Source: Desulfuromonadales bacterium (GTDB lineage: Bacteria > Desulfobacterota > Desulfuromonadia > Desulfuromonadales > JACZKF01). Taken from it: a DNA stretch of 32,473 bases. Below the pieces are notes generated by a model that was not told the origin of the DNA, ran no database searches, and was given only the letters and a program-made list of their open reading frames with translations. The position numbers and the translations under genes were made by a program. The stretch spans positions 1 through 32,473 of the forward strand of contig JARFUG010000036.1 of the NCBI GenBank assembly GCA_029289095.1. The letters run 5' to 3'. Shown here one piece after another: positions 1-20,026 of the stretch (its first letter is position 1; each line of letters starts with the position of its first letter).

Positions 1-55
1 CCTGGCTCCTGGCTCCTGGCTCCTGGCTCCTGGCTCCTGGCTCCTGGCTCCTGGC
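1..55. repeat. Tandem heptanucleotide repeat (CCTGGCT)n
   Basis: The 7-base unit CCTGGCT is repeated perfectly seven times, followed by a partial eighth copy (CCTGGC). CCTG occurs at 1, 8, 15, 22, 29, 36, 43 and 50. The array begins at the window edge, so its full length is unknown. It lies about 110 bases before the glpX start and is probably intergenic. A degenerate relative with the same CCTGNNN period lies before ruvC. Confidence 0.95.
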
Positions 56-96
56 ATCAAGGATATCGGATCTTTGGCGGACTCTCCAGTGTCCGG

Positions 97-125
97 TTGT
101 TTTCATCCTTCATCCGTGGCATAGT
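97..125 (+). promoter_or_regulatory. Possible sigma-70 promoter for glpX
   Basis: TTGTTT (97-102) and CATAGT (120-125) are separated by 17 bases and lie about 40 bases before the glpX start. They match the -35 and -10 consensus at 3/6 and 4/6 positions, so this is only a weak candidate. Confidence 0.25.
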
Positions 126-163
126 GCGCAGCGATTTTCACGTAACACGAAGTGAGGAGCCGT

Positions 164-1117
164 ATGGATCGCAATCTCGCACTGGAACTGGTCAGAGTCA
201 CCGAAGCGGCCGCCCTTGCCGCCGGACGATGGGTCGGAAAAGGGGATAAGACGGCAGCCGACGAGGCCGCCACGAGCGCCATGCGACGCACCCTTGGATC
301 ACTGGACATCAGCGGAACGGTCGTGATCGGCGAGGGAGAAATGGATGAGGCGCCCATGCTCTACATCGGCGAGCATGTCGGGAACGCCGATTCTCTGGAG
401 GTCGACATCGCAGTCGACCCCCTGGAGGGGACGAACATTTGCGCCAAGGGGATGAACGGCGCCATCGCAACGATCGCTCTCGCCCCCCGGGGAGGATTCC
501 TGCATGCGCCGGACATGTACATGGAGAAGATCGTCGTCGGCCCCGCTGCCAGGGGAGCCATCGACATCAATCTCTCCCCCCGCGAAAATCTTTTGCGGGT
601 GGCCGAGGCGAAAAGGTGCCGGACCGAGGATCTGACTGTTGTCATTCTGGACCGCCCCCGGCACGACAAGATCGTTTCAGAGTTGCGCAGAGCCGGAGCC
701 TGCATCCATCTCATCCCCGACGGCGATGTGGCTCCGGCCATCGCCGCTGCGGTCGAGGGGAGCGGAGTCGACATGCTGATGGGGGTCGGGGGCGCACCAG
801 AGGGGGTATTGGCCGCCGCCGCCCTCAAATGCCTCGACGGCGACATGCAGGGCAGGCTCGTCTTTTTGAGCCAGAGTGAACGCGAACGCGCCGTGGCGAT
901 GGGAATAAAAGATTTCGACCGCGTCTACAGTGCAGAGGAGATGGCCCGCGGCGACGTGGTCTTCGCCGCCACCGGCGTCACCAGCGGCGACCTGCTCACC
1001 GGAGTGCGCTATTTCTCCGGGGGAGCGCAGACTCATTCGATCGTCATGCGCTCTCAAAGCCGCACCGTGCGCTTCGTCGAAGCCCGGCACCGCTTTGACC
1101 ACAAGCCCGTTTACTGA
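164..1117 (+). CDS. glpX: Class II fructose-1,6-bisphosphatase GlpX
   Basis: Hydrolyses fructose-1,6-bisphosphate to fructose-6-phosphate, the gluconeogenic step, in the cytoplasm. The 317-residue product has the family's usual length. The metal and active-site residues known from E. coli GlpX are seen at the same numbers: D33, E57 (in GEGEMDEAP), D85 (in VDPLEGT), T90 and E213 (in APEG). The ATG at 164 is chosen over an in-frame GTG at 152, because AGGAG (155-159) sits just before the ATG and the homologous proteins begin MDRNLALE. The next gene follows after 84 bases that contain a possible promoter, so glpX may be a single-gene unit. Confidence 0.95.
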   Translation: MDRNLALELVRVTEAAALAAGRWVGKGDKTAADEAATSAMRRTLGSLDISGTVVIGEGEMDEAPMLYIGEHVGNADSLEVDIAVDPLEGTNICAKGMNGAIATIALAPRGGFLHAPDMYMEKIVVGPAARGAIDINLSPRENLLRVAEAKRCRTEDLTVVILDRPRHDKIVSELRRAGACIHLIPDGDVAPAIAAAVEGSGVDMLMGVGGAPEGVLAAAALKCLDGDMQGRLVFLSQSERERAVAMGIKDFDRVYSAEEMARGDVVFAATGVTSGDLLTGVRYFSGGAQTHSIVMRSQSRTVRFVEARHRFDHKPVY

Positions 1118-2201: not shown

Positions 2202-2945
2202 GTGGCAGGACACAGCAAGTGGGCCAACATCAAACACCGCAAAGGGGCGCAGGATGCCAGGCGCGGGAAAATTTTCACCAAACTCATCAAAGAGATCACC
2301 ATAGCCGCCAAGCTCGGAGACAGCGACCCTAACGCCAATCCCCGACTGCGCCAGGCCATCGACAAGGCCAAAAACGAGAACATGCCAAAGGACACCATTG
2401 AGCGCGCCATCAAGAAAGGCTCGGGCGAACTCGACAGCGTCCAGTACGAGGAAGGCGTGTTCGAGGGGTACGGTCCGGGCGGAGTCGCTGTCATCGTCGA
2501 GTTCATGACCGACAACCGCACCCGCACCGTTGCGGACGTGCGCCATATCTTCAGCAAGCACAACGGCAGCCTCGGGGTGACGGGCTCCGTCTCTTTTCTT
2601 TTCGACCGCAAAGGCCTGATCTCTTTCTCCACCGATCAGGATTTCGACGCTCTGTTCGAAGCCGCTCTGGAGGCCGGCGCCGAGGACGTCAAGGACGAGG
2701 GGGACGCCTACGAAGTCATCACGGCTCCGACCGATTTCATCGAGGTGCGCGATGCCCTTGGCGCCCGCTTCACATGGCAGAGCGCCGAGATCACCATGAT
2801 CCCCCAGACGATGGTGGCGATCGAGGGGAAACAGGCCGAGCAGATGCTAAAGATGATGGAGAAGCTCGAAGACAACGATGATGTGCAGAACGTCTACGCG
2901 AATTTCGACATCTCGGAAGAGGAAATCGCCAAGGCGATCGGATAA
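2202..2945 (+). CDS. yebC: YebC/PmpR-family transcriptional regulator (TACO1-like)
   Basis: The 247-residue product is a full-length YebC family protein, opening with the signature [14 protein letters not shown] and carrying the conserved GYGPGGVAV segment and acidic C-terminal domain. Members are DNA-binding regulators, and some act on translation of proline-rich stretches. The start is GTG at 2202, preceded by AAAGGAG (2187-2193). The gene leads into ruvC, ruvA and ruvB, a widespread bacterial arrangement, which suggests a shared transcript although a repeat-rich gap of 80 bases separates yebC from ruvC. Confidence 0.95.
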
Positions 2946-3025: not shown

Positions 3026-3532
3026 ATGAGAATTCTCGGCATCGACCCCGGCAGCCGAATCACGGGGTACGGCATCATCGAGCAGAGGGGGAACCGTCTG
3101 CTGCATGTCGACAACGGGGCGATCTTCACCCGAAGCGACGAGAGTCTCGCCTGCCGTCTTCGAACCATTCACTCGGCCCTGGGAGATGTCATCTTGCGCT
3201 ACGCGCCTGACGCGGCCGTCGTGGAGGAGATCTTCATCGCCAAGAACGCCCTCTCGGCCCTGAAACTCGGTCATGCTCGCGGAGCCGCGCTTCTGGCCGG
3301 GATCAACGCCGGTCTGCCCGTCTTCGAATATACGGCGATGCAGGTCAAAAGCGCCGTGGTCGGATACGGCAAAGCGGACAAGGGACAGGTCCAGCAGATG
3401 GTGCGCATGCTGCTGAATCTTCCGGAGATCGCCCAGGAGGATGCCTCCGATGCCCTTGCGGTCGCCATCTGCCATGCGCACAGCCGAGGCCTGTCCGAAC
3501 GCCTGGCCGTTGCCGCCGGGGGGAAACGATGA
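3026..3532 (+). CDS. ruvC: Crossover junction endodeoxyribonuclease RuvC
   Basis: Resolves Holliday junctions during homologous recombination by symmetric cleavage, working with RuvAB. The 168-residue product has the normal length. The four acidic catalytic residues are visible: D7 (GIDPGS), E67 (VVEEIF), D139 and D142 (EDASDALA). The [15 protein letters not shown] segment is also conserved. The ATG at 3026 matches the family start, but no good Shine-Dalgarno precedes it because the heptad repeat occupies that position. ruvA follows 34 bases after the stop. Confidence 0.97.
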
Positions 3533-3566
3533 GCCCGGCGAACCCCTCAGCATATCGACGAATCCG

Positions 3567-4163
3567 ATGATTGCTCTTCTGACCGGAAAAATCGCCTTTC
3601 GATCGATCGATCATCTGATCGTCGACGTCGCCGGAGTCGGCTACCGCCTGATGATTCCGCTTTCGACCTTCTACGCCCTGCCCGAGGAAGGCGATGTGCG
3701 CCTCCACGTCCACACGCACGTGAAGGAAGACGCCATCCATCTCTACGGTTTCTGGACGCTGCAGGAGAAGGAGATGTTTTTGCTCCTGCTGACCATTTCG
3801 GGGATTGGCCCCAAGGTGGCCCTCAACATTCTCAGCAATATTCCCGTGGCTGAGCTGCGCGCGGCTCTGAGCGAAGGGGACAGCCGACGTCTTTCAGCCC
3901 TTCCCGGCGTCGGAAAAAAAACAGCCGATCGCCTCGTTCTCGAACTCCAGGAGAAGATCCGTCGCCTCGGCGCCCCTCCGGCCGCCTCGGCTGCGAAATC
4001 GGCGCCGGGCGCCTCCCTCCCCTTCGACGATTCCCTCTCTGCGCTGATCAATCTCGGGTATAAGGAGAGCCAGGCGAGAAAAGTCCTTGAGGCGATGGAA
4101 ATCCCCCCCGGAACCCCTCTGGAGACGATCCTCAAGGGGGCGCTGAGAGTTCTGGTGAAATGA
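3567..4163 (+). CDS. ruvA: Holliday junction branch migration protein RuvA
   Basis: RuvA binds four-way DNA junctions as a tetramer and loads the RuvB motor. The 198-residue protein shows the N-terminal OB-fold (1-64, MIALLTGKI start), two helix-hairpin-helix motifs (SGIGPK 78-83, PGVGKK 113-118), an Ala/Pro-rich linker (about 136-150) and a C-terminal RuvB-binding domain (from about 152). The reading frame is open upstream to 3441, overlapping ruvC, but the ATG at 3567 is the only start matching the family. It lacks an obvious Shine-Dalgarno, so translation may depend on coupling to ruvC. Confidence 0.97.
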
Positions 4164-4197: not shown

Positions 4198-5229
4198 ATG
4201 ACCGACCGCCTGATCACCCCCAGAAGCAGCGAAGAGGACGTCCGCTTCGAAACAGGGCTGCGTCCCCGCGCCTTGCGCGAGTACATCGGCCAGAGCAAGG
4301 CCAAGGAGAACCTCCAGGTCTTCATCGATGCCGCCCGGGGCCGAGGAGAGGCGCTCGACCACGTCCTGTTCTACGGCCCCCCAGGGCTGGGCAAGACAAC
4401 CCTTGCCAACATCATCGCCAACGAACTGCGGGTCAATATCAAGAGCACCTCCGGCCCCGTCATCGAAAAACCGGGGGACCTGGCGGCGATCCTGACCAAC
4501 CTGGAAGCCGGAGACGTCCTTTTCATCGACGAGATCCACCGGTTGTCGGCGGTGGTGGAGGAGATCCTCTATCCGGCGATGGAAGACTACCAACTCGACA
4601 TCATTATCGGACAAGGACCCTCGGCGCGCAGCATCAAGCTCGATCTTCCCCGCTTCACCCTGGTGGGGGCGACGACCCGCGCCGGGCTTCTCTCTTCGCC
4701 GCTACGGGATCGCTTCGGCGTCATCAGCCGCCTGGAATTCTATACGCCCGAGGAACTCACAACCATCGTGGGGCGCAGCGCCGCTATTCTCGGGATCTCC
4801 ACCGAGCCCGAAGGCGCCCGCGAAATCGCCCGCCGCAGCCGGGGCACTCCCCGAATCGCCAATCGGCTTCTTCGCCGGGTGCGCGATTTCGCCGAAGTCA
4901 TCGGCAAGGGGGTGATTTCCGCGCAGGTGGCCAATCACGCCCTGGAGCGTCTGGAGGTCGACGGGGCGGGTTTCGACCACATGGACCGCCGCATCCTTCT
5001 CACCATCATCGATAAATTCTCCGGAGGACCGGTCGGCCTCGAGACGCTTGCGGCCTCTGTCGGAGAGGAGAAGGATACCATCGAAGATGTGATCGAGCCC
5101 TACCTGATCCAGCAGGGATATGTCAACCGCACCCCACGGGGACGGGTCGCCACCCCGCTGGCGTATCGCCATTTCGACCGCTTTGCCGCGGAGCGTTCGG
5201 GGCTGTTTTCCTTCGAAGCTGAGCGCTGA
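4198..5229 (+). CDS. ruvB: Holliday junction branch migration ATPase RuvB
   Basis: A hexameric AAA+ motor that drives branch migration with RuvA. The 343-residue product is full length. It shows Walker A (GPPGLGKTT, starting at residue 60), Walker B (DEIH, 111-114), sensor 1 ([18 protein letters not shown], which includes the arginine finger region) and a C-terminal winged helix (ending near [12 protein letters not shown]). The ATG at 4198 is 34 bases after the ruvA stop, with a weak GAAGAGAG upstream. The GGDEF gene starts only 6 bases after its stop, so the ruvCAB transcript probably continues into it. Confidence 0.97.
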
Positions 5230-5235
5230 ACAAGT

Positions 5236-6561
5236 ATGAAACTCCCCGCATTCACCGTCATTCAAAAGGTTGCCGCAGGCTATCTTCTTCTGGTCTTCTT
5301 CTTCCTTGTGGCCCTGGTCTTTGCCCTCGGCGCCCTGCGCACCCAGACCGAGCGTTCGGAACAGCTCGTTCAAGTCGATTTCAGGGCGCTGAACCTTGCC
5401 CGCAGCCTCCGCCAGAACCTGACGGCATGGGAAAACCTGGCGCGTCAGACAGTGATTCTGCGCGACGAGACGATGATCGCCCTTCTTGAAGCACGGGGAA
5501 TCGAGGCCTCCGATTTGTGGGCGGAGCTTTCCGCCATCGTCCCGGAACTCCCCGAGGAGCTCGTGTCGGCTCGCAGGAGCCTGCTGCAGGAGCAGCCACT
5601 CTGTCTCGAGCTGTTGACGCAAGGGAACTGGCACCAGGCCCAAAACTGTCTTACGCAGATCGCCCCGCACCATTCCTTGATGGCCCGGACTCTCGAGGCT
5701 TTCATCGCCGAGCGGCAAAGAGTTCTCGATGCGACTCTCGTCTTTTTTTCCGAAGCAAGCGCAAAGGCCTATCGCACCGCTCTGGCACTCACGTTTCTGG
5801 GCATCGCCTTATCGGCCATCGTCGCCATGACGATCATTCTCGGAATTCATCGCGCCATCGGGACGCTGACCCGGGCGACCAAAGCGATCGCCGCCGGCAG
5901 TTTCGAGCATTCGGTGGCCGTTGACCGCGCCGACGAATTCGGGCTTCTTGCCCGGGAATTCAACGAGATGGGGATGAAACTGCGTCAGCTCGAAGAGCTC
6001 TGTCTCGACGCCAATCCCCTCACCCATCTTCCGGGCAGTCTCGCCCTCGACAGGGAGATGGCGCTGCGGATCGCTACGGGCAGACCCTTTGCGCACATCT
6101 ATGTGGACCTCGACCATTTCAAAGCCTATAATGACCGATACGGCTATCGGGCCGGCAGCGACGTGATCTCGCGGGTGGCCGACCTCGTCAGGGAAATTGT
6201 CCCACGGCTCGAAATTCCTGAAGCCCTGATCGGTCATATCGGGGGAGACGATTTCGTCATCCTTGCCGGCGATCTCGGAAAAGCCGAAACATTCTCTCAG
6301 GAACTGGTCTCCCGATTCGACGCCATCGCGCCCGAATTCTATTCCGAGGAAGATCGCCGGGAAGGGGGTTTCTCGGGCGTCGACCGGTTTGGCGAGGCGC
6401 GCCGCTTCGCCCTCATGACCATATCGATCGCCGTTGTCTGGTCTGCCCGGATCGACAATCCCACTCCTCACGCGATCAGCCAGGAATGCGTCAAGATGAA
6501 GGATCACCTTAAATCGCAACCGGGGAGCAATTACCTCATCGACCGTCGGCGCGCCCTATGA
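5236..6561 (+). CDS. Membrane-bound HAMP-GGDEF protein (probable diguanylate cyclase)
   Basis: A 441-residue inner-membrane signalling protein. Seen in order: a short cytoplasmic N-terminus, TM1 (about 13-33), an extracytoplasmic helical sensor region (34-180), TM2 (181-203), a HAMP-like linker (204-256) and a GGDEF domain (257-441). The domain has THLPGS, the metal-site DLDHFKAYND (291-300) and GGDDF (336-340) in place of GG(D/E)EF. No RxxD inhibitory site is seen just upstream. GGDDF variants occur in a recognised subset of the family, so activity making cyclic di-GMP is plausible but unproven. The stop overlaps the next gene's ATG (ATGA), indicating coupled translation with the lipoprotein. 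Confidence 0.9.
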   Translation: MKLPAFTVIQKVAAGYLLLVFFFLVALVFALGALRTQTERSEQLVQVDFRALNLARSLRQNLTAWENLARQTVILRDETMIALLEARGIEASDLWAELSAIVPELPEELVSARRSLLQEQPLCLELLTQGNWHQAQNCLTQIAPHHSLMARTLEAFIAERQRVLDATLVFFSEASAKAYRTALALTFLGIALSAIVAMTIILGIHRAIGTLTRATKAIAAGSFEHSVAVDRADEFGLLAREFNEMGMKLRQLEELCLDANPLTHLPGSLALDREMALRIATGRPFAHIYVDLDHFKAYNDRYGYRAGSDVISRVADLVREIVPRLEIPEALIGHIGGDDFVILAGDLGKAETFSQELVSRFDAIAPEFYSEEDRREGGFSGVDRFGEARRFALMTISIAVVWSARIDNPTPHAISQECVKMKDHLKSQPGSNYLIDRRRAL

Positions 6562-6950
6562 TGAAACGTCTCGTGCTGCTGATCGCCATTGTGCTGAGCG
6601 CCGGCTGCGTTCAAATCGTCCCCATCGCCTCGACGACGGTGACGACGCCCGACCCTTCCGAAGCCCTCTTCGTTCAGGTGCTTGAAGAGGAGGCGCCCCG
6701 ACGCGCCGAGGCTCTGGCTGAGTTGGAGCGCGACCATTCGCAGAGCCCGTGGGCTCTTCGGGCGAAAAAGATCGAAGAACTGCGAACCTCACGCGACGCC
6801 CTGACCGACCGCATTCGCAATCTCGAGCGCAGGAATAATACGGAGGTCCAGAAAAATCGCGCCCTGGAAAAGGAGCTCAACAGCCTTCGCAACGATCTGG
6901 AGAAGCTGAAGCAGATCATCATCGAGATGGAGCAGCGCTCGAGGATCTAG
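6558..6950 (+). CDS. Small coiled-coil lipoprotein of unknown function
   Basis: A 130-residue protein with a lipoprotein signal peptide: positively charged MMKR, hydrophobic core, and lipobox LSAG-C with the acylated Cys at residue 17. The mature part has a Thr/Pro-rich segment and then a long charged coiled coil (about 75-127) without a further membrane segment. The family is not recognised. The ATG at 6558 overlaps the stop of the GGDEF gene by 4 bases, so the two are likely made together. It may be an envelope partner of that sensor (inference). A second ATG directly follows at 6561. Confidence 0.85.
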   Translation: MMKRLVLLIAIVLSAGCVQIVPIASTTVTTPDPSEALFVQVLEEEAPRRAEALAELERDHSQSPWALRAKKIEELRTSRDALTDRIRNLERRNNTEVQKNRALEKELNSLRNDLEKLKQIIIEMEQRSRI

Positions 6951-6960
6951 CCTCCCGCCG

Positions 6961-9321
6961 ATGCGCGATCCTGACGCGATTGAGCATCGCCTCCACGCAT
7001 TCTGTATGAGACCAGAAGATCTCCACCTCTTCAGCCGTCAGCTCGCCCTTTGGGCCGAATCGGCCATCACCCGGGGGCGAACTCCTTTCCGACGGGTCGA
7101 GACGTCTCCGACTCTCTTGAGTGCGGCAGGGGAGGTGCGCCCCGCCCTCGTCCTGTGGATCAATCGCGATAGCTTCATGGCCGGCGGAGTCCTTCTGCTC
7201 CCCCCTGCCGGCGGCGAGCCCTCTCACCAAAAGGGGCATCTCTGCGCCCGGGCGCTCGGTCTGAGACATTTCGCCACGTGGGATCCGAAGGAAATCGTCG
7301 TTTGGGAGGATCAAGGGAAAGAAATACGCCGGCATCGCACCCTTGATTTGCCTGCCCCCCCGGGTGCGGAAGATTTTCGTTTCGCGCTGGAGCGCCTTCT
7401 TGAGGAATTCAAGCTTCTGTCCGTCCTCGGAAGCGTCCCTGCACAGGAGCTCTCTCATCATTATTTCGCCAATCTCGCCCGCGCCACCCTCGAGGGGGCC
7501 TTCGGGGCGCTGACCGAATCGGTGCGCGTCGCCCAGGCGGAGAGGCGTCTGCCCGCTTCGCTTTGTCCTTTCGATCACGCCCGACGCAAGAGCGCTCTCG
7601 TCCTTCTGCGCCTGCTGGTGCTCCTGCTCCAGGACCGCCTCCCTACCGGCATTCAGCCGGAGAACCTCGAAAAAGCGATGCTCTTCGCCCTGGAGGAGAT
7701 TGCCGAACCTCTGCGGGATCTTCTGCTGCCCGCTCAAGAGGAACTTCCCCTTTGCTCCGAGGCCGCGGTACGGTTCCATCACCTGCTGCGTCGCCTGGGG
7801 CAGCTTCGATTCGGCGAAGACCCCACACGCGCGGCGCAGGTCCTCGAGCTGTTTCTGTCCTGCGAAGCATCCCGGCTCGGCGGACATCCCCTGCCCGACT
7901 CAGCGCCAAGCGGAGACACGCTCCTTCTCCATCCCGACCGCCTGGTCGCCTGCGCATCGGTCGCGGCTGAAATCTCCTCTTTGCCGCTTCTGGCTCTCGG
8001 CACTTTGCTGCGCACCCTTCGGGGAGAAACTCTGCCGAAGATCCGGCGGCAGAGCGTCTTCGACCTTTCCAGGGAGGAGGTTCCTGCGCACATCGTCGGC
8101 ACCCTGAACGATCGCTCCCTCCCCTCGGCGGCGCAACGCCCGATTCTGCTCGGCCACTTGCGCGCCTCCTGGCCGAACCGGCGCTTTCCGCTCCCCCCGC
8201 ATACGCCTTGGTGGGCCTGGGAACTGCTGCATCTGCTCGGTCTGGCGCCCGAGGGGAGCCAGCTCTATCTGAACGTCCCCGCCGGATGGCTTTGCAGCGA
8301 CTTTGCCGCAACTCTCGTGACTGTTCTGCGCGAAGGCTACACGCTCAGCAGCCTGCGCCATTCGGAACACCATCTGACGCTTGCGATCAGGCGCGAAGCT
8401 TCAGCGCACAGCGAGTCTCGCCTTCTCGACCTTTCCGCAGAGGAGACGATCCTTTCCTGGGCTAAACTGCAAAGCGCCCCCCTCCCCCTATGCTGTCTCG
8501 TTCTGGCCTTTCCATCCTGCTTCTCCCGCCTGCTGGAGCGCGAAGAGCCCATTTTCGATTTCGCCGACTCGGCGGACTGGTCTGGACAGCACCGGCAGAT
8601 TCTTCGCTTCGCCCACAGTTTCCTTGGGCGCCATCTCTGGAAAATCGCCTCCGGGGGCGCCCCCCTTCCGAGCCCGCCTGCATTCGAGAGAGAGGCCAAG
8701 CGCGTCCAATGGCCTGTCCTCTCTGCCGACATTCTGGAACGGCTCGATGCCGTGGCCACCCCGCCCGGAGGGGAGAACGCCGAGTTCGATCGCGAACTGG
8801 CCCGCCTCACCGGCCTTCCGTCCGACTTCACATCGCTCCTTCGCACTTCCTGCAGCCCGTCCTCCTCGCGCAACACTGCGCCCCGGGGGCTGGCCCGAAG
8901 TGTTGCGGCCACGGTCTTCGCCGACGGCATCCCCCTTTTTCCCGAGCAGTATCTCTACGACTACTATCGTCCAGAACTTCAGGTGTTCTCGTTCACAGGG
9001 GCGCTGCGGATCGAGGAAAACTTCTTCGGGGAGATCACCCTGTGCGATTCCCGGGGGGTCAAGATCACCGTTGAGGGTGAAGAGTGCGCAAAGGCGCTGG
9101 AACTTGCCTCCTACAGCGGCCGCACGCCCGTCTATCTTCCCCGCGACCTGCGCATCACCGGAGAAATCCTTGATCGATACCTGCACGATCTTCGGCACCT
9201 CCAGCAGATGCTCCTGCGTCAGACGCACCTCAAGGCGGCGGACACCAAGGCCGCCGATGCACTGGCCCAGCGCATCTGGAAGTCGCTCCCCCTGCCTCCG
9301 TGGTCCGTGCTGGAGCGGTGA
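6961..9321 (+). CDS. Uncharacterised 786-residue protein, possibly a degenerate restriction-modification-like fold
   Basis: I do not recognise the family. There is no signal peptide or clear membrane segment. Residues about 60-130 (PALVLWINRD ... GLRHFATWDPKEIVVWE) recall the N-terminal nuclease-like module of type I or Eco57I-like enzymes, but the acidic/Lys catalytic core is not visible. Residues 138-300 are helical (FRFALERLLEEFKLLSVLG). Residues 430-480 (SQLYLNVPAGWLCSDFAATL ... LTLAIRRE) recall the region after the catalytic motif of N6-adenine methyltransferases, yet no NPPY/DPPY motif or SAM-binding Gly motif is found. The C-terminal 650-786 could be a recognition-type domain. The gene starts 10 bases after the lipoprotein stop and no partner restriction gene is nearby. 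The fold similarity is inference from pattern only. Confidence 0.9.
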   Translation: MRDPDAIEHRLHAFCMRPEDLHLFSRQLALWAESAITRGRTPFRRVETSPTLLSAAGEVRPALVLWINRDSFMAGGVLLLPPAGGEPSHQKGHLCARALGLRHFATWDPKEIVVWEDQGKEIRRHRTLDLPAPPGAEDFRFALERLLEEFKLLSVLGSVPAQELSHHYFANLARATLEGAFGALTESVRVAQAERRLPASLCPFDHARRKSALVLLRLLVLLLQDRLPTGIQPENLEKAMLFALEEIAEPLRDLLLPAQEELPLCSEAAVRFHHLLRRLGQLRFGEDPTRAAQVLELFLSCEASRLGGHPLPDSAPSGDTLLLHPDRLVACASVAAEISSLPLLALGTLLRTLRGETLPKIRRQSVFDLSREEVPAHIVGTLNDRSLPSAAQRPILLGHLRASWPNRRFPLPPHTPWWAWELLHLLGLAPEGSQLYLNVPAGWLCSDFAATLVTVLREGYTLSSLRHSEHHLTLAIRREASAHSESRLLDLSAEETILSWAKLQSAPLPLCCLVLAFPSCFSRLLEREEPIFDFADSADWSGQHRQILRFAHSFLGRHLWKIASGGAPLPSPPAFEREAKRVQWPVLSADILERLDAVATPPGGENAEFDRELARLTGLPSDFTSLLRTSCSPSSSRNTAPRGLARSVAATVFADGIPLFPEQYLYDYYRPELQVFSFTGALRIEENFFGEITLCDSRGVKITVEGEECAKALELASYSGRTPVYLPRDLRITGEILDRYLHDLRHLQQMLLRQTHLKAADTKAADALAQRIWKSLPLPPWSVLER

Positions 9322-9432: not shown

Positions 9433-9972
9433 ATGAATATTCTGCTGCACATCTGCTGCGCCAACTGCGCCATCTATCCGCTCGCTGTGCTGCGTGAAGA
9501 ACAGCATCAGGTGAGCGGCTTCTTCTACAACCACAACATCCACCCGTACCAGGAATTCCGACGCCGCCTCGACACGGCCAGGGATTACGCAGAACGCGTC
9601 GGCCTCCCGATGGTGTGGCGCGAAGATTATCCGTTGGAGGAGTTCCTCCTGCACACAGCCCCGGTTCCCCAACTGCGCTGTGATTACTGCTACCGTTCAC
9701 GTCTGGAGGAGACGGCCCGCACCGCCGTCCGAGAGGGTTTCGACGCCTTTTCCACCTCGCTGCTCTATTCGCGCTACCAGCAACATGACAAAATCCGCGA
9801 ACTCGGTCAGGATCTCGCCCTGCGCTACGGACTTGCTTTCGTCTACCAGGATTTTCGTCGCGGCTGGCGCCAGGGGATCGACATCTCCAAGGCGATGGGA
9901 CTGTACCGTCAGCAGTACTGTGGCTGCATCTATTCAGAAAAAGAGCGCTATTCTCCGCGCGTCGGCAACTGA
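9433..9972 (+). CDS. queH: Epoxyqueuosine reductase QueH
   Basis: Catalyses the last step of queuosine synthesis in tRNA, reducing epoxyqueuosine to queuosine. It is the cobalamin-independent alternative to QueG (formerly DUF208). The 179-residue protein shows the expected cysteines: vicinal C8-C9 and C12 in the N-terminal HICCANC motif, C83/C86 in RCDYCY, and C163/C165 in YCGC. These bind an iron-sulfur cluster and form the redox pair in characterised members. The ATG at 9433 gives the family N-terminus (MNILLHICC). A gap of 111 bases separates it from the 786-residue gene, so it may start a new unit with the DUF2905 gene, which follows 10 bases later. Confidence 0.95.
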   Translation: MNILLHICCANCAIYPLAVLREEQHQVSGFFYNHNIHPYQEFRRRLDTARDYAERVGLPMVWREDYPLEEFLLHTAPVPQLRCDYCYRSRLEETARTAVREGFDAFSTSLLYSRYQQHDKIRELGQDLALRYGLAFVYQDFRRGWRQGIDISKAMGLYRQQYCGCIYSEKERYSPRVGN

Positions 9973-10295: not shown

Positions 10296-10334
10296 TATTC
10301 AACTGCTTAATATGACTTGAAAAGGAGAAGAGCG

Positions 10335-10676
10335 ATGTTGGAACTTGTCGAAAAAACACTCCTGGCCGGTATTGGCGCGCTGTCCCTGACCCAGAAAAAG
10401 ACCGAAGAACTCATCGCCGAAGTCCAGAAACAGTTCAATCTCAGCGAGGAGAAGGGACGTGAGCTCTTTGGAAAACTCGAAAACGCCGCCCGCGAAAATC
10501 AGCAGAAGCTCGAGGAGCTGGCACGCCAGGAGGTGCGCAATTCCTGTGAGCGGCTGGGCCTCGTGACCGCCGAGGATCTCGAGATCCTCCGACGCAAGAT
10601 CGATCTGCTGGAAGAGCAGATCCGCGATCTGCAGCTAAAGGAATCCCAGCACACCCCCGTGACGGACGAACTCTGA
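10335..10676 (+). CDS. Phasin-like coiled-coil protein (PHA-granule regulator type)
   Basis: A 113-residue, largely helical protein. Residues 1-70 (start MLELVEKTLLAGIGALSLTQ, then KKTEELIAEVQKQFNLSEEKG) resemble phasin-superfamily or poly-granule-associated proteins. Residues 77-105 form a heptad-patterned coiled coil (TAEDLEILRRKIDLLEEQI). Such proteins coat or regulate polyhydroxyalkanoate granules in some bacteria, but no PHA synthase is in view, so the role is unproven. The ATG at 10335 is preceded by a very strong AAAGGAG (10321-10327), which decides the start. A UbiB-type kinase gene follows about 120 bases later across two hairpins. Confidence 0.85.
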   Translation: MLELVEKTLLAGIGALSLTQKKTEELIAEVQKQFNLSEEKGRELFGKLENAARENQQKLEELARQEVRNSCERLGLVTAEDLEILRRKIDLLEEQIRDLQLKESQHTPVTDEL

Positions 10677-10680
10677 TATC

Positions 10681-10710
10681 CGGGAAAGGGGGCTTCCCCC
10701 CCAGCCCGGT
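10681..10710 (+). terminator. GC-rich hairpin after the phasin-like gene
   Basis: Nested pairing CCGGG (10681-10685) with CCCGG (10706-10710) and GGGGG (10689-10693) with CCCCC, starting 5 bases after the stop. No T run follows, so it may stabilise the 3' end rather than terminate. Confidence 0.35.
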
Positions 10711-10740
10711 CCGATTCATCTTCCCTGCTCGCCCCCCTAA

Positions 10741-10781
10741 GATGGTGGAAGTCATGCTGTTGCCAGGATGACTCCACCATC
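10741..10781 (+). promoter_or_regulatory. 14-bp hairpin in the ubiB leader
   Basis: GATGGTGGA, one bulged A, then GTCAT (10741-10755) pairs with ATGAC and TCCACCATC (10768-10781) around a 12-base loop. The 3' arm abuts AGGA (10782-10785), the likely ribosome binding site of the downstream gene. A T5 run follows at 10790-10794, so it could act as an attenuator or a translation modulator. Confidence 0.6.
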
Positions 10782-10798
10782 AGGACGCCTTTTTGCGC

Positions 10799-12490
10799 AT
10801 GCTGACCTTTTCACGTATCAACCGCAATATTCGCTCCATCCGCCGATATCGCAACATACTCGGCATTCTCATCAAGTACGGCTTCGGCCATATCGTCGAG
10901 CAGCTGAACATCAGCTACTACCTCGAGCTCGGCCGCAGAATCGTGACGCTCGGCACAGCCCCGAAGGAGATCGAGCGCCTGACGCAGCCGGTTCGGCTGC
11001 GCCTCGCCATGGAAGAGCTCGGCCCCACCTTCGTCAAGCTCGGTCAGATTCTTTCCACACGCCCCGACATTCTTTCTCGAGAGTACATCGAGGAATTCAA
11101 AAAACTTCAGGACAATGTCCCCTCCATAACCGCGGAGGCCGTAAGGAGTCAGATCCAGCGCGAGCTCGGTTACCCGGTGGAGGATCTCTTCGCCGAATTC
11201 TCGCCTATTCCCATCGCCGCCGCCTCCATAGCCCAAGTTCATCGCGCCCGCCTGCGCAGCGGTGAGCAGGTCGTGGTCAAGATCCGCCGCCCCGGCATCG
11301 AGCAGGTGATCTCCAGCGATCTCGAAATCCTCATGGGGCTCGCCTATCTTATCGATCAGCATATCCCCGCCAGTCACATCTACGATCCCATCGGGATCGT
11401 CAAGGAATTCCGCCGTATCCTCTCCAGGGAGATGGACTTCCACCGGGAGGGGCGCACCATCGACCGTTTTGCACTGAATTTTCGCGACGACCCCACCGTC
11501 AAGGTCCCCAAGGTCTTCTGGGAGCATACCGCCGAAGCGGTCCTCACTATGGAATTCATCGACGGGGTCAAGATCTCGAGCCTTCAGCTTCTGACCGCCC
11601 GGGGACACGACCTGAAGGCCATAGCCCGCAATGGCGCCGACTCCATTTTGAAACAGGTGCTGATTCATGGCTACTTCCATGGAGATCCTCACCCCGGGAA
11701 CCTCTACGTCCTTGAGGGAGACGTCCTGTGCTATCTCGATTACGGCATGGTGGGACGCCTCGACGAGGATCTGAAATTTCAGTTGATCGAACTGATTTCC
11801 GCTATTCTTGACCGCGATGTCGACAGGGTTCTCAACTCCCTGCTCTTCTCGGGTCAGATGAGCGAAGAGACCGACACCCAGCAATTGCAGCGCGATCTTT
11901 CCGAATTCATCGATGACTATTACGAGCTCCCCCTCCAGGAGATCAACGCAGGGAAACTGCTCACCGAATTCATCGATATTCTCAGCACCTACCACATCCG
12001 CTTTCCCTCGGATCTTATGCTTCTGGCCAAGGCCCTCGTGACGATCGAGGGGATCGGACGACAGCTCGATCCCGAGTTCAACATGATCAACCACATCAAA
12101 CCTTTCATGGGTCGCCTTGCACGCGAACGCTTCAATCCGGCCGCCCTCTCCCGCGAAGCGATGCGCACCATCCAGGGCTACAGCGCGCTGATGAAGAGCC
12201 TGCCCCGGGACATCAAGGAATTCATCGGCCGGGTCAACCGCAATAAATTCAAAATCGATCTTGAGCACCGGGGACTGGAGAGACTGATCGTCGATCTGGA
12301 CAAATCGAGCAACCGCATCTCGTTCAGCATGCTGATCGCATCGCTTATCGTCGGCTCCTCACTGATCATGCAGACGGAACGGCCCCCTTTTCTCTTCGGT
12401 TATCCGCTGCTGGGCTTTCTCGGCTATTCCATCGCTGCCGTGCTTGGGCTCTGGCTCGCCATCGCTATCCTGCGCTCCGGCCGCCTCTGA
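10799..12490 (+). CDS. ubiB: UbiB/ABC1 (AarF) family atypical kinase
   Basis: A 563-residue membrane-associated atypical protein kinase/ATPase linked in characterised members to quinone synthesis. Seen: KLGQ motif (80-83), Ala-rich nucleotide loop AAAS (140-143), lysine K161 (VVKIRRPG), catalytic HGDPHPGN (294-301), metal-binding DYG (314-316) and two C-terminal membrane helices (about 518-560). The start is ATG 10799. An in-frame TTG at 10793 is better placed from AGGA (7 versus 13 bases) and remains possible. Strict anaerobes of this type use menaquinone, so the ubiquinone-based name reflects the family rather than a proven pathway. Confidence 0.93.
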   Translation: MLTFSRINRNIRSIRRYRNILGILIKYGFGHIVEQLNISYYLELGRRIVTLGTAPKEIERLTQPVRLRLAMEELGPTFVKLGQILSTRPDILSREYIEEFKKLQDNVPSITAEAVRSQIQRELGYPVEDLFAEFSPIPIAAASIAQVHRARLRSGEQVVVKIRRPGIEQVISSDLEILMGLAYLIDQHIPASHIYDPIGIVKEFRRILSREMDFHREGRTIDRFALNFRDDPTVKVPKVFWEHTAEAVLTMEFIDGVKISSLQLLTARGHDLKAIARNGADSILKQVLIHGYFHGDPHPGNLYVLEGDVLCYLDYGMVGRLDEDLKFQLIELISAILDRDVDRVLNSLLFSGQMSEETDTQQLQRDLSEFIDDYYELPLQEINAGKLLTEFIDILSTYHIRFPSDLMLLAKALVTIEGIGRQLDPEFNMINHIKPFMGRLARERFNPAALSREAMRTIQGYSALMKSLPRDIKEFIGRVNRNKFKIDLEHRGLERLIVDLDKSSNRISFSMLIASLIVGSSLIMQTERPPFLFGYPLLGFLGYSIAAVLGLWLAIAILRSGRL

Positions 12491-12508
12491 CCCTCTTTTC
12501 ACCTTCGA

Positions 12509-12552
12509 TTGTTGCATTTTTTCCACATCCATTCCTTGCCGATCTGCAACAA
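12509..12552 (+). promoter_or_regulatory. 8-bp inverted repeat, candidate upstream activator site
   Basis: TTGTTGCA (12509-12516) and its exact complement TGCAACAA (12545-12552) lie about 60-105 bases before the sigma-54-type promoter, in the range typical for enhancer-binding proteins. The centre-to-centre distance is 36 bases. Whether a regulator binds here is inference. Confidence 0.4.
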
Positions 12553-12613
12553 AGGTCGCCCCCTTCATCCCTCAACCGTACCAATTCAGGCACTTTATAC
12601 CTCATCAGGACAC

Positions 12614-12629
12614 TGGCAAGGTCTTTGCA
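12614..12629 (+). promoter_or_regulatory. Sigma-54 (-24/-12) promoter upstream of lpxC
   Basis: TGGCAAG, four bases, then TTGCA matches the RpoN consensus TGGCACG-N4-TTGCW with one mismatch and the exact GG-to-GC spacing of 12. The GG is at 12615-12616 and the GC at 12627-12628. The expected transcription start is near 12640, leaving a leader of about 40 bases before lpxC. Confidence 0.6.
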
Positions 12630-12650
12630 TCGAAGATGAGCGGATATGCT

Positions 12651-12656
12651 TACAAT
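12651..12656 (+). promoter_or_regulatory. Possible -10 element of a second lpxC promoter
   Basis: TACAAT is a 5/6 match to the sigma-70 -10 box, 25 bases before the lpxC ATG. No good -35 is found at the right distance, so it is a weak candidate. Confidence 0.25.
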
Positions 12657-12681
12657 GACTGCCGCCCTGAAAGGACCTGCA

Positions 12682-13602
12682 ATGATTTTTCAATGCACCA
12701 TCGCTCATCCGGTATTGATTTCTGGTATCGGTCTGCACTGCGGCGAGCGGATCAATATGGCGCTGCGCCCGGCCGAATCCGGCACAGGGATTGTCTTTCA
12801 CCGCAAACTCACTGATCGCACCGTCTCCATCGAGGCGCACTCTTCACGCGTTGTCGACACCCGCCTTGCAACGGTGCTCGGCAAATCTGGAGTCACCGTT
12901 TCTACCGTCGAGCACCTTCTTGCCGCTCTTTGCGCGCTGGGGATCGACAACCTCCATATCGATATCGACGGCCCTGAGGTCCCCGTACTGGACGGCAGCG
13001 CCGCCCCCTTCGTCGATCTTCTTCAGAACGCCGGCGTGCGTCGCCTCAAGCGCGCCCGACGCTTTCTGGCCGTTCGACGCCCCATGAGCATCGTGGACGG
13101 CGACAAGCGGGTCAGCATTATCCCCTCGCGTTTTTTTCGGATCAGCTTCGAGATCGCTTTCAACCACCCGTGCATCTCGCACCAGGAGCGCACCATCAAG
13201 TTGTCGCCCGAGACCTTCAGCAAAGAGATCGCCCCAGCCCGAACCTTCGGTTTTCTCAAGGAGGTCGAATTTCTCAAAGCCAACGGCCTTGCAAGGGGCG
13301 GGTCGCTCGAAAACGCCATCGTCATCGGTGAGGACTCCATCCTCAACCCCGAAGGGCTCCGTTTCCACGATGAGTTCGTCCGTCACAAGATTCTCGATTC
13401 CATCGGAGATTTCAGTCTTCTCGGCTATCCGATTCTGGGGCATATCAAGGCGTCCAGAGCCGGACACGATCTGAACCACCGCATGGTGGAGCAGATCCTC
13501 GCATCTCCGGAGTGCTGGAAACTTGTCGAATTCACTGTTGACGACTCTGAACACCCCCAGACGAGCATTCCTGCTTTCTTCCCCGAGCCTGCCCTGACCT
13601 GA
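12682..13602 (+). CDS. lpxC: UDP-3-O-acyl-N-acetylglucosamine deacetylase LpxC
   Basis: A zinc enzyme for the committed step of lipid A synthesis, removing the N-acetyl group from UDP-3-O-acyl-GlcNAc. The 306-residue protein has the usual length. Zn ligands H78 (in STVEHLLAAL), H235 and D239 (RHKILDSIGDF), catalytic E77 and H262 (AGHDLNH), and T188 are visible. The ATG at 12682 is chosen because AAGGA (12671-12675) precedes it by 6 bases and the conserved domain begins there. The frame is open to an ATG at 12646 that overlaps the promoter elements. A strong hairpin follows, then ntrY. Confidence 0.97.
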   Translation: MIFQCTIAHPVLISGIGLHCGERINMALRPAESGTGIVFHRKLTDRTVSIEAHSSRVVDTRLATVLGKSGVTVSTVEHLLAALCALGIDNLHIDIDGPEVPVLDGSAAPFVDLLQNAGVRRLKRARRFLAVRRPMSIVDGDKRVSIIPSRFFRISFEIAFNHPCISHQERTIKLSPETFSKEIAPARTFGFLKEVEFLKANGLARGGSLENAIVIGEDSILNPEGLRFHDEFVRHKILDSIGDFSLLGYPILGHIKASRAGHDLNHRMVEQILASPECWKLVEFTVDDSEHPQTSIPAFFPEPALT

Positions 13603-13613
13603 CCTCTTCACCT

Positions 13614-13653
13614 GTGCGGGGCGCCTTCCCGAGGCGCCCCGCACTTGCATTTA
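13614..13653 (+). terminator. Strong hairpin after lpxC, probable (partial) terminator
   Basis: A perfect 13-bp stem, GTGCGGGGCGCCT (13614-13626) with its complement (13632-13644), has the loop TCCCG and starts 11 bases after the lpxC stop. The following TTGCATTTAT is only moderately T-rich, so read-through into ntrY is likely. Confidence 0.7.
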
Positions 13654-19630: not shown

Positions 19631-20026
19631 TTAGACTCTTCTGCGCTTGGGCGGACGGCAACCGTTGTGAGGAATCGGCGTGACATCCTTGATCATGGTG
19701 ACGTTGAGCCCGGTCGCCTGAAGCGCACGCAACGCCGACTCACGACCAGCCCCAGGGCCCTTGACCTGAACCTCAACAGAGCGCATACCATGTTCCTGGG
19801 CCTTTTTCGCAGCATCTTCGGCGGCGATCTGAGCGGCGAAGGGGGTGCTCTTGCGCGAACCCTTGAAGTTCTTCGATCCGCTGCTTGACCAGGAAATCAC
19901 GTTTCCGACTGGATCCGTGATGGTTACAATCGTGTTGTTGAAGGTCGCCTGAATGTGTGCAACGCCTGTGGCGATATTCTTTTTCTCGACCTTTTTCCTG
20001 ACAACTTTCTTGCCTGCCTTAGCCAT
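19631..20026 (-). CDS. rpsK: 30S ribosomal protein S11
   Basis: Part of the platform of the small subunit at the mRNA exit site. The 131-residue protein has the conserved [14 protein letters not shown] and the C-terminal [11 protein letters not shown]. Two ATG codons stand in a row (20029 and 20026). The second is preferred because GGAGG would lie only one base from the first. It sits 11 bases after rpsM and 15 before rpsD. Confidence 0.97.

Follow-up and report, generated by a model that had tools for sequence, protein, structure and literature searches.

A gene of no recognised family behind ruvB

What does the product of an unannotated gene do in a string that includes ruvCAB, the genes for processing crossed DNA strands, throughout an order of metal- and sulfur-breathing bacteria? 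The gene, for which we use the working name X, encodes a protein of 786 residues at positions 6961-9321 of the plus strand, in a single uninterrupted frame of 786 codons. It was studied within a window of 32,473 nucleotides, by which we mean the whole stretch of DNA analysed. Since the majority of homologues have their first residue where X has Met16, and residues 1-13 have a pLDDT below 50 in the AlphaFold model, the X start may be at 7006, giving a protein of 771 residues.

A preliminary description of this DNA had recognised no family, and the databases bore this out. Even at permissive thresholds, X gave no match in Pfam, NCBIfam, PHROGs or PADLOC, and comparison with PDB sequences (phmmer and profile search) returned nothing meaningful. 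Pfam matches, including those to N6_Mtase, Eco57I, HSDR_N and similar families, were likewise absent from the X family (0/29 members). Neither a description of the family nor an experimental phenotype of any homologue was found in the open literature.

Homologues, mostly full length, were present in 48 of the 58 sampled relatives. By profile search, 70 of the 75 genomes from the order Desulfuromonadales carry X, and the 71 from the rest of the class all lack it; in a further 292 genomes of the phylum from outside the order, it was also absent. The order of the carriers is Desulfuromonadales by the named contigs (Desulfuromonas, Desulfuromusa, Malonomonas, Geothermobacter, Geoalkalibacter, Geopsychrobacter and Pelovirga), and cultured carriers include Desulfuromusa kysingii, Malonomonas rubra, Geothermobacter hydrogeniphilus and Pelovirga terrestris. 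Given these homologues and the substitution rates reported below, X is a real gene. One contig carrying X came from a metagenome-assembled genome labelled Chloroflexi; its gene order was the same as in Desulfuromonadales, and it is probably mis-binned.

Linkage of X to ruvB

Of the 54 named loci, 53 had ruvB upstream of X on the same strand, the remaining contig ending before that point, and in loci without an intervening gene the distance from the ruvB stop to the X start was mostly -4 to 30 bp. Upstream of ruvB, the genes ruvA, ruvC and yebC were found in nearly all contigs long enough, and downstream of X came a phasin-like gene (49/54 loci), ubiB (47/54) and lpxC (45/54). The preliminary description had named ruvCAB, a GGDEF gene and a lipoprotein gene as neighbours; all of these, and queH, were confirmed in the window (Table 1). 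When the neighbourhood was followed across Desulfuromonadales, as had been proposed there, the linkage to ruvB was general and that to queH was not (29/54 loci), while the GGDEF gene and the lipoprotein gene were detected in 11/54 and 5/54 loci. A constant partnership of X with the GGDEF gene or queH was therefore rejected.

Terminator-like sites at 2050-2070 and 13614-13644 flank the yebC-lpxC string, such sites being no commoner in the window than in shuffled sequence. A pattern scan found no LexA-type box upstream of the string, and near-matches to this box occurred in the window as often as expected by chance.

Linkage within the string is no proof of partnership; yebC, queH, ubiB and lpxC share it and their functions are unrelated. 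X could serve another process encoded there (tRNA queuosine, quinone, lipid A or envelope), or have a general role, its proximity to ruvB reflecting co-expression. This reading, which draws on the presence of queH, ubiB, lpxC and the phasin-like gene in the same string, seems unlikely to us: queH is an inconstant member, ruvB is the constant immediate neighbour, and the fold predicted for X comes from DNA-acting enzymes.

Table 1. Features of the X locus (positions in the window; residue numbers refer to the 786-residue frame)
Feature	Position	Strand	Basis or remark
yebC	2202..2945	+	Pfam, NCBIfam
ruvC	3026..3532	+	Pfam
ruvA	3567..4163	+	NCBIfam TIGR00084; match begins at residue 43 of the over-long ORF 3441-4163, so the start is probably near 3567
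ruvB	4198..5229	+	NCBIfam; conserved partner gene of X
HAMP-GGDEF protein gene	5236..6561	+	GGDDF motif; sits between ruvB and X in 11/54 loci
Small coiled-coil lipoprotein gene	6558..6950	+	LSAGC lipobox; optional neighbour
X gene	6961..9321	+	One open frame; likely true start 7006 (Met16)
PD-(D/E)XK-like pseudo-nuclease, residues 18-160	7012..7440	+	Model, BpuSI/DrdV alignments, 9y1l/6okh; most conserved region
WINRDS, residues 66-71	7156..7173	+	Near-invariant WINRxS; between the strands that bear catalytic residues in active nucleases
Helical domain, residues 161-300, HsdM/type IIG-like	7441..7860	+	Model secondary structure; 2okc alignment
Truncated gamma N6-adenine methyltransferase fold, predicted to be without catalysis, residues 301-500	7861..8460	+	Model, fold matches, alignment
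Place of motif I, LLLHPD, residues 321-326	7921..7938	+	Glycines lost; placed by strand order in the model
Place of motif IV, GTLND, residues 380-384	8098..8112	+	Motif lost; placed by strand order in the model
SWPNRRF, residues 403-409	8167..8187	+	New conserved signature LRxSWPxRRF of the pseudo-methyltransferase; W404 and R407 invariant
Variable segment, residues 501-640, place of the type IIG/TaqI target-recognition domain	8461..8880	+	Structure alignment
Conserved C-terminal alpha/beta domain, residues 641-786 (146 residues)	8881..9318	+	Separate model
queH	9433..9972	+	Optional neighbour, 29/54 loci
Phasin-like gene, ubiB, lpxC	10317..13602	+	Conserved downstream end of the gene string

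The predicted structure of X has a type IIG layout

The structure of X was predicted with AlphaFold2 from a 29-sequence alignment (mean pLDDT 87, pTM 0.76). In the model, a single chain has a PD-(D/E)XK-like domain at its N terminus, followed by a helical domain and then by the fold of gamma-class N6-adenine methyltransferases; this is the layout of type IIG restriction-modification (RM) enzymes. The element order of the pseudo-nuclease is H18-37, E45-48, E63-68, E73-79, H88-99, E103-107 and E111-117. When the model was compared with the PDB by Foldseek, BpuSI ranked first (E 4.4e-12), DrdV next (E 8e-8) and HsdM-type methyltransferases after them; the restriction-endonuclease-like chains 9y1l and 6okh were weaker, single-domain matches of a size that suits the N-terminal domain. 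VIA-align placed residues 14..561 on BpuSI, 15..584 on DrdV, and 165-517 on the HsdM subunit 2okc (Z 19.4, rmsd 3.3 over 308 residues). The best structure matches in the viral library were adenine methyltransferases too.

Type IIG enzymes (RM.BpuSI, 3s1s; DrdV, 7lvv; MmeI, 5hr4) have the same order of nuclease, helical and N6-adenine methyltransferase parts in one polypeptide, but X differs from them in lacking PD..ExK, DPxCGSG and NPPY, in its putative target-recognition segment, which is reduced or deleted, in its unmatched C-terminal domain and in its vertically inherited housekeeping locus. With the type I subunit HsdM (2okc, EcoKI, EcoR124I), X shares the helical and methyltransferase folds over residues ~165-517 (Z 15-19); unlike HsdM, it lacks SAM and catalytic motifs, an S or R partner and any Pfam N6_Mtase match. 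Its predicted fold makes X a descendant of type IIG RM enzymes or a protein of common ancestry with them.

Conservation was uneven along the protein, with a mean pairwise identity of 43% in the pseudo-nuclease, 37% in the C-terminal domain, 36% in the helical domain, 28% in the pseudo-methyltransferase and 22% in segment 501-640. Structure matches to CamA and TaqI extend within this last segment as far as residue 619, and 80-110 of its residues are deleted in 9 members examined. As type IIG/TaqI enzymes have their target-recognition domain at this place, the variability and deletion of the segment make the reading of a fixed DNA sequence unlikely as the conserved function of X. With its slightly acidic composition overall, the protein is not an obvious DNA binder.

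The C-terminal 170 residues, when modelled separately, reached a pLDDT of 89.7. No Foldseek match in the PDB was obtained for the C-terminal domain at E<=0.001, and the best VIA match, ribosome recycling factor (Z 5.1), was rejected as a relative, its score being below kinship level. The domain is without a convincing PDB relative, and weak or missing matches of this kind are no proof of a new fold.

Both catalytic signatures have been lost

Motifs were surveyed in a 73-row alignment (X and 72 relatives), the columns of the nuclease site comprising 70 sequences without gaps, and the places of the catalytic motifs in X were set by strand order in the model rather than by residue-level superposition. 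At the nuclease "PD" position (columns 61-62), the 70 sequences have mostly P-P, and ExK is absent from the strand at residues 73-80, which reads AGGxxLL. Across the 73 rows, SAM motif I (DPxCGSG) is absent, its presumed place being occupied by [NHY]Px, as is catalytic motif IV (NPPF/Y), where G-T-L-x-[DN] is found. X is not a type IIG RM enzyme, because both catalytic signatures are missing. In BpuSI, N406 of the NPPY motif is needed for both activities (PMC3817140), so X, judged by its sequence, should have neither nuclease nor methyltransferase activity. With its homologues in Desulfuromonadales, X forms a new pseudoenzyme family that has no name as yet.

Conversely, new residues have become fixed near both former sites: W66, N68 and S71 occur in 70/70 sequences without a gap at the site. 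Such near-invariant polar and aromatic residues, together with full-length purifying selection, raise the question of whether X might perform a new, unrecognised catalysis in the old clefts by means of W66/N68/R69/S71 and W404/R407. We hold this to be improbable: for the most part W, P, R, G and N are the residues that do not vary, with no recognisable catalytic set among them, and any metal- or SAM-binding signature is gone.

Profile-profile comparison (HHalign) gave no significant link of X to RM enzymes, be it to HsdM or to nine further ORFs for RM-type methyltransferases in related genomes. In 4 of these 9 comparisons, individually non-significant, the best segment was X residues ~424-468, just after the NPPF/W of the partner, and the same segment came out best against a combined type IIG-like set, again without significance. 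The repeated choice of this segment is suggestive of RM ancestry, for which the sequence by itself would be weak support.

The preliminary description had likened residues ~60-130 to restriction nucleases and 430-480 to the post-catalytic part of N6-adenine methyltransferases, with the catalytic motifs of both missing. Both likenesses agree with the fold matches to BpuSI, DrdV and HsdM subunits, and the second also with the HHalign segment; the signatures are absent family-wide. The structure search that it had proposed led to type IIG and HsdM proteins as top matches and not to an unrelated fold; no characterised family with intact catalytic residues was matched, and the proposed profile-profile search brought no significant hit.

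X is inherited vertically and kept by selection

Pairwise dN/dS over the entire X gene was 0.09-0.27, and was low in every domain in nearly all pairs. Pairwise distances of X correlated with those of RuvB (r 0.91), UbiB (0.90) and LpxC (0.96), and none of the Mantel permutations equalled the observed correlations; X evolves about 6.7 times as fast as RuvB. This distance pattern is that of a vertically inherited housekeeping gene. That X is a decaying pseudogene or an annotation artefact is hardly credible: the loss of the catalytic motifs and the frameshifts or stops in a few genomes might be taken that way, but full-length frames are intact in most of the order and the dN/dS values span the whole of X, by which this reading is refuted. 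Of the alternatives "decayed or repurposed" offered earlier, the second thus stands and the first falls to purifying selection, and the description of X as an RM-like protein in a housekeeping operon is supported by fold, linkage and selection. The preservation of X by selection, with both catalytic signatures lost, suggests that a defence enzyme of ancient origin was put to housekeeping use.

Its descent from an RM fold could also mean that X still acts in defence or anti-restriction, by phage sensing or as an RM decoy. We consider this very improbable. Unlike defence genes, X is inherited vertically, across the order and at a single site; PADLOC gave no match, and in the genome to which the window belongs, no match to the N6_Mtase or Eco57I families was found that X could act with or against. 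No relatives were found in viral contigs or in phage and plasmid collections, and a phage or plasmid origin of the present-day gene was rejected on this ground. Nothing was found that points to the phage response envisaged in the preliminary description.

Loss of X and the RecBCD and AddAB systems

Two lineages of Desulfuromonadales keep ruvCAB without X (L114-L116, L122, L124, L127 and L128; families f2/g3 and f7), and X is therefore not needed by RuvABC. In families f2/g3, a small methyltransferase-like gene lies behind ruvB; in family f7, the GGDEF gene is retained or (L124) the ruvB string continues to lpxC. Among the Geobacterales genomes examined, most have a DnaA/Hda-like ATPase gene, not X, behind ruvB. 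This protein of ~240 residues, which has Bac_DnaA and Hda_lid domains (tested on L120), is encoded directly behind ruvB, in the slot of X, in L120, L123, L125 and L126.

RecC was present in 7/7 members of the order with ruvB but without X, compared with 6/48 members with X (Fisher p 8e-6, counted by genome). Counted by lineage, X was lost in 2/6 RecC-bearing and 0/16 other lineages (p 0.065). With this p value and two losses, a link between X loss and RecBCD is not established and is a lead only. RecBCD and AddAB-like systems alternate within Desulfuromonadales, and the majority of X carriers encode AddAB-like PDDEXK_1 proteins in place of RecC.

AddB carries an inactive enzyme module that serves as a DNA reader in recombination. 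By analogy, X might be a sequence reader, a Chi-like or end-processing regulator working with an AddAB-type helicase-nuclease upstream of RuvABC and dispensable where RecBCD is present. The per-genome count and the AddAB-like proteins of most carriers would be in keeping with such a role, as would the recognition of Chi in a tunnel of RecC (PMC7644769). We nevertheless judge it decidedly unlikely: the count by lineage comes down to two losses, at least four RecC-bearing lineages retain X, AddAB-bearing Geobacterales are without it, and several members have lost the segment likely to serve target recognition. The pseudo-modules of RecC and AddB are, like X, inactive folds, and act as DNA readers; X differs in domain make-up and has no helicase part, so the likeness is an analogy only.

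A possible accessory factor of RuvAB(C)

The architecture of X, the loss of its catalytic signatures, the selection acting on it and its linkage to ruvB are, taken jointly, claims that we make with high confidence. Its function is more tentative. The reading that we prefer, while stopping short of calling it probable, is that X, encoded by a housekeeping gene of the ruvCAB operon, assists RuvAB(C) in Holliday-junction processing as an accessory factor without catalysis, the role in recombination being suggested by linkage and fold ancestry. A role in DNA repair is plausible.

According to this model, X would go back to a single capture of a type IIG-like RM polypeptide near the base of Desulfuromonadales, and its non-catalytic descendant would have been retained in the ruvCAB operon. 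The old nuclease/methyltransferase clamp and the new C-terminal domain may engage DNA at or near junctions, branched DNA or RuvB, and X would load, position or restrain RuvAB(C), neither cutting nor methylating. Several lineages do without the putative target-recognition segment, so X is likelier to recognise the shape of DNA or a partner protein than a fixed sequence. The stronger version, in which an RM polypeptide stripped of both activities and fitted with a new domain has become an order-specific fourth component of RuvABC, lost only where RecBCD is present, is rather doubtful.

That dead enzymes are reused as scaffolds or DNA readers is known already (RecC, METTL14). In METTL14-type pseudo-methyltransferases, a dead adenine-methyltransferase fold serves as a scaffold or substrate platform; X resembles them in this dead fold, but no active paralogue partner is known for it. 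DnmA (YeeA) of Bacillus subtilis is an RM relic with a house function and not in phage defence (PMC9973331). It is like X in this respect, but DnmA is an active m6A methyltransferase, whereas X has lost its catalytic signatures. Literature searches turned up no account of an entire restriction enzyme, nuclease and methyltransferase together, that became a recombination-operon gene with vertical inheritance. If true, our model would describe a route by which selfish or defence genes enter core DNA repair; a recombination pathway that is among the best studied would gain an uncharacterised factor, and a gene left unannotated throughout a bacterial order would have a testable role.

Other observations in the window

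The gene at 1202-2029, which lies upstream of yebC in 33/54 loci, unusually combines a cytidylate-kinase-like domain with a BON domain at the C terminus. At 10317-10676, a short phasin-like protein (PF05597) is encoded immediately 5' of ubiB (49/54 loci). Positions 19844-19861 are an exact match to GGTTNNCNNNNGNNNACC, which we take to be the LexA-box pattern.
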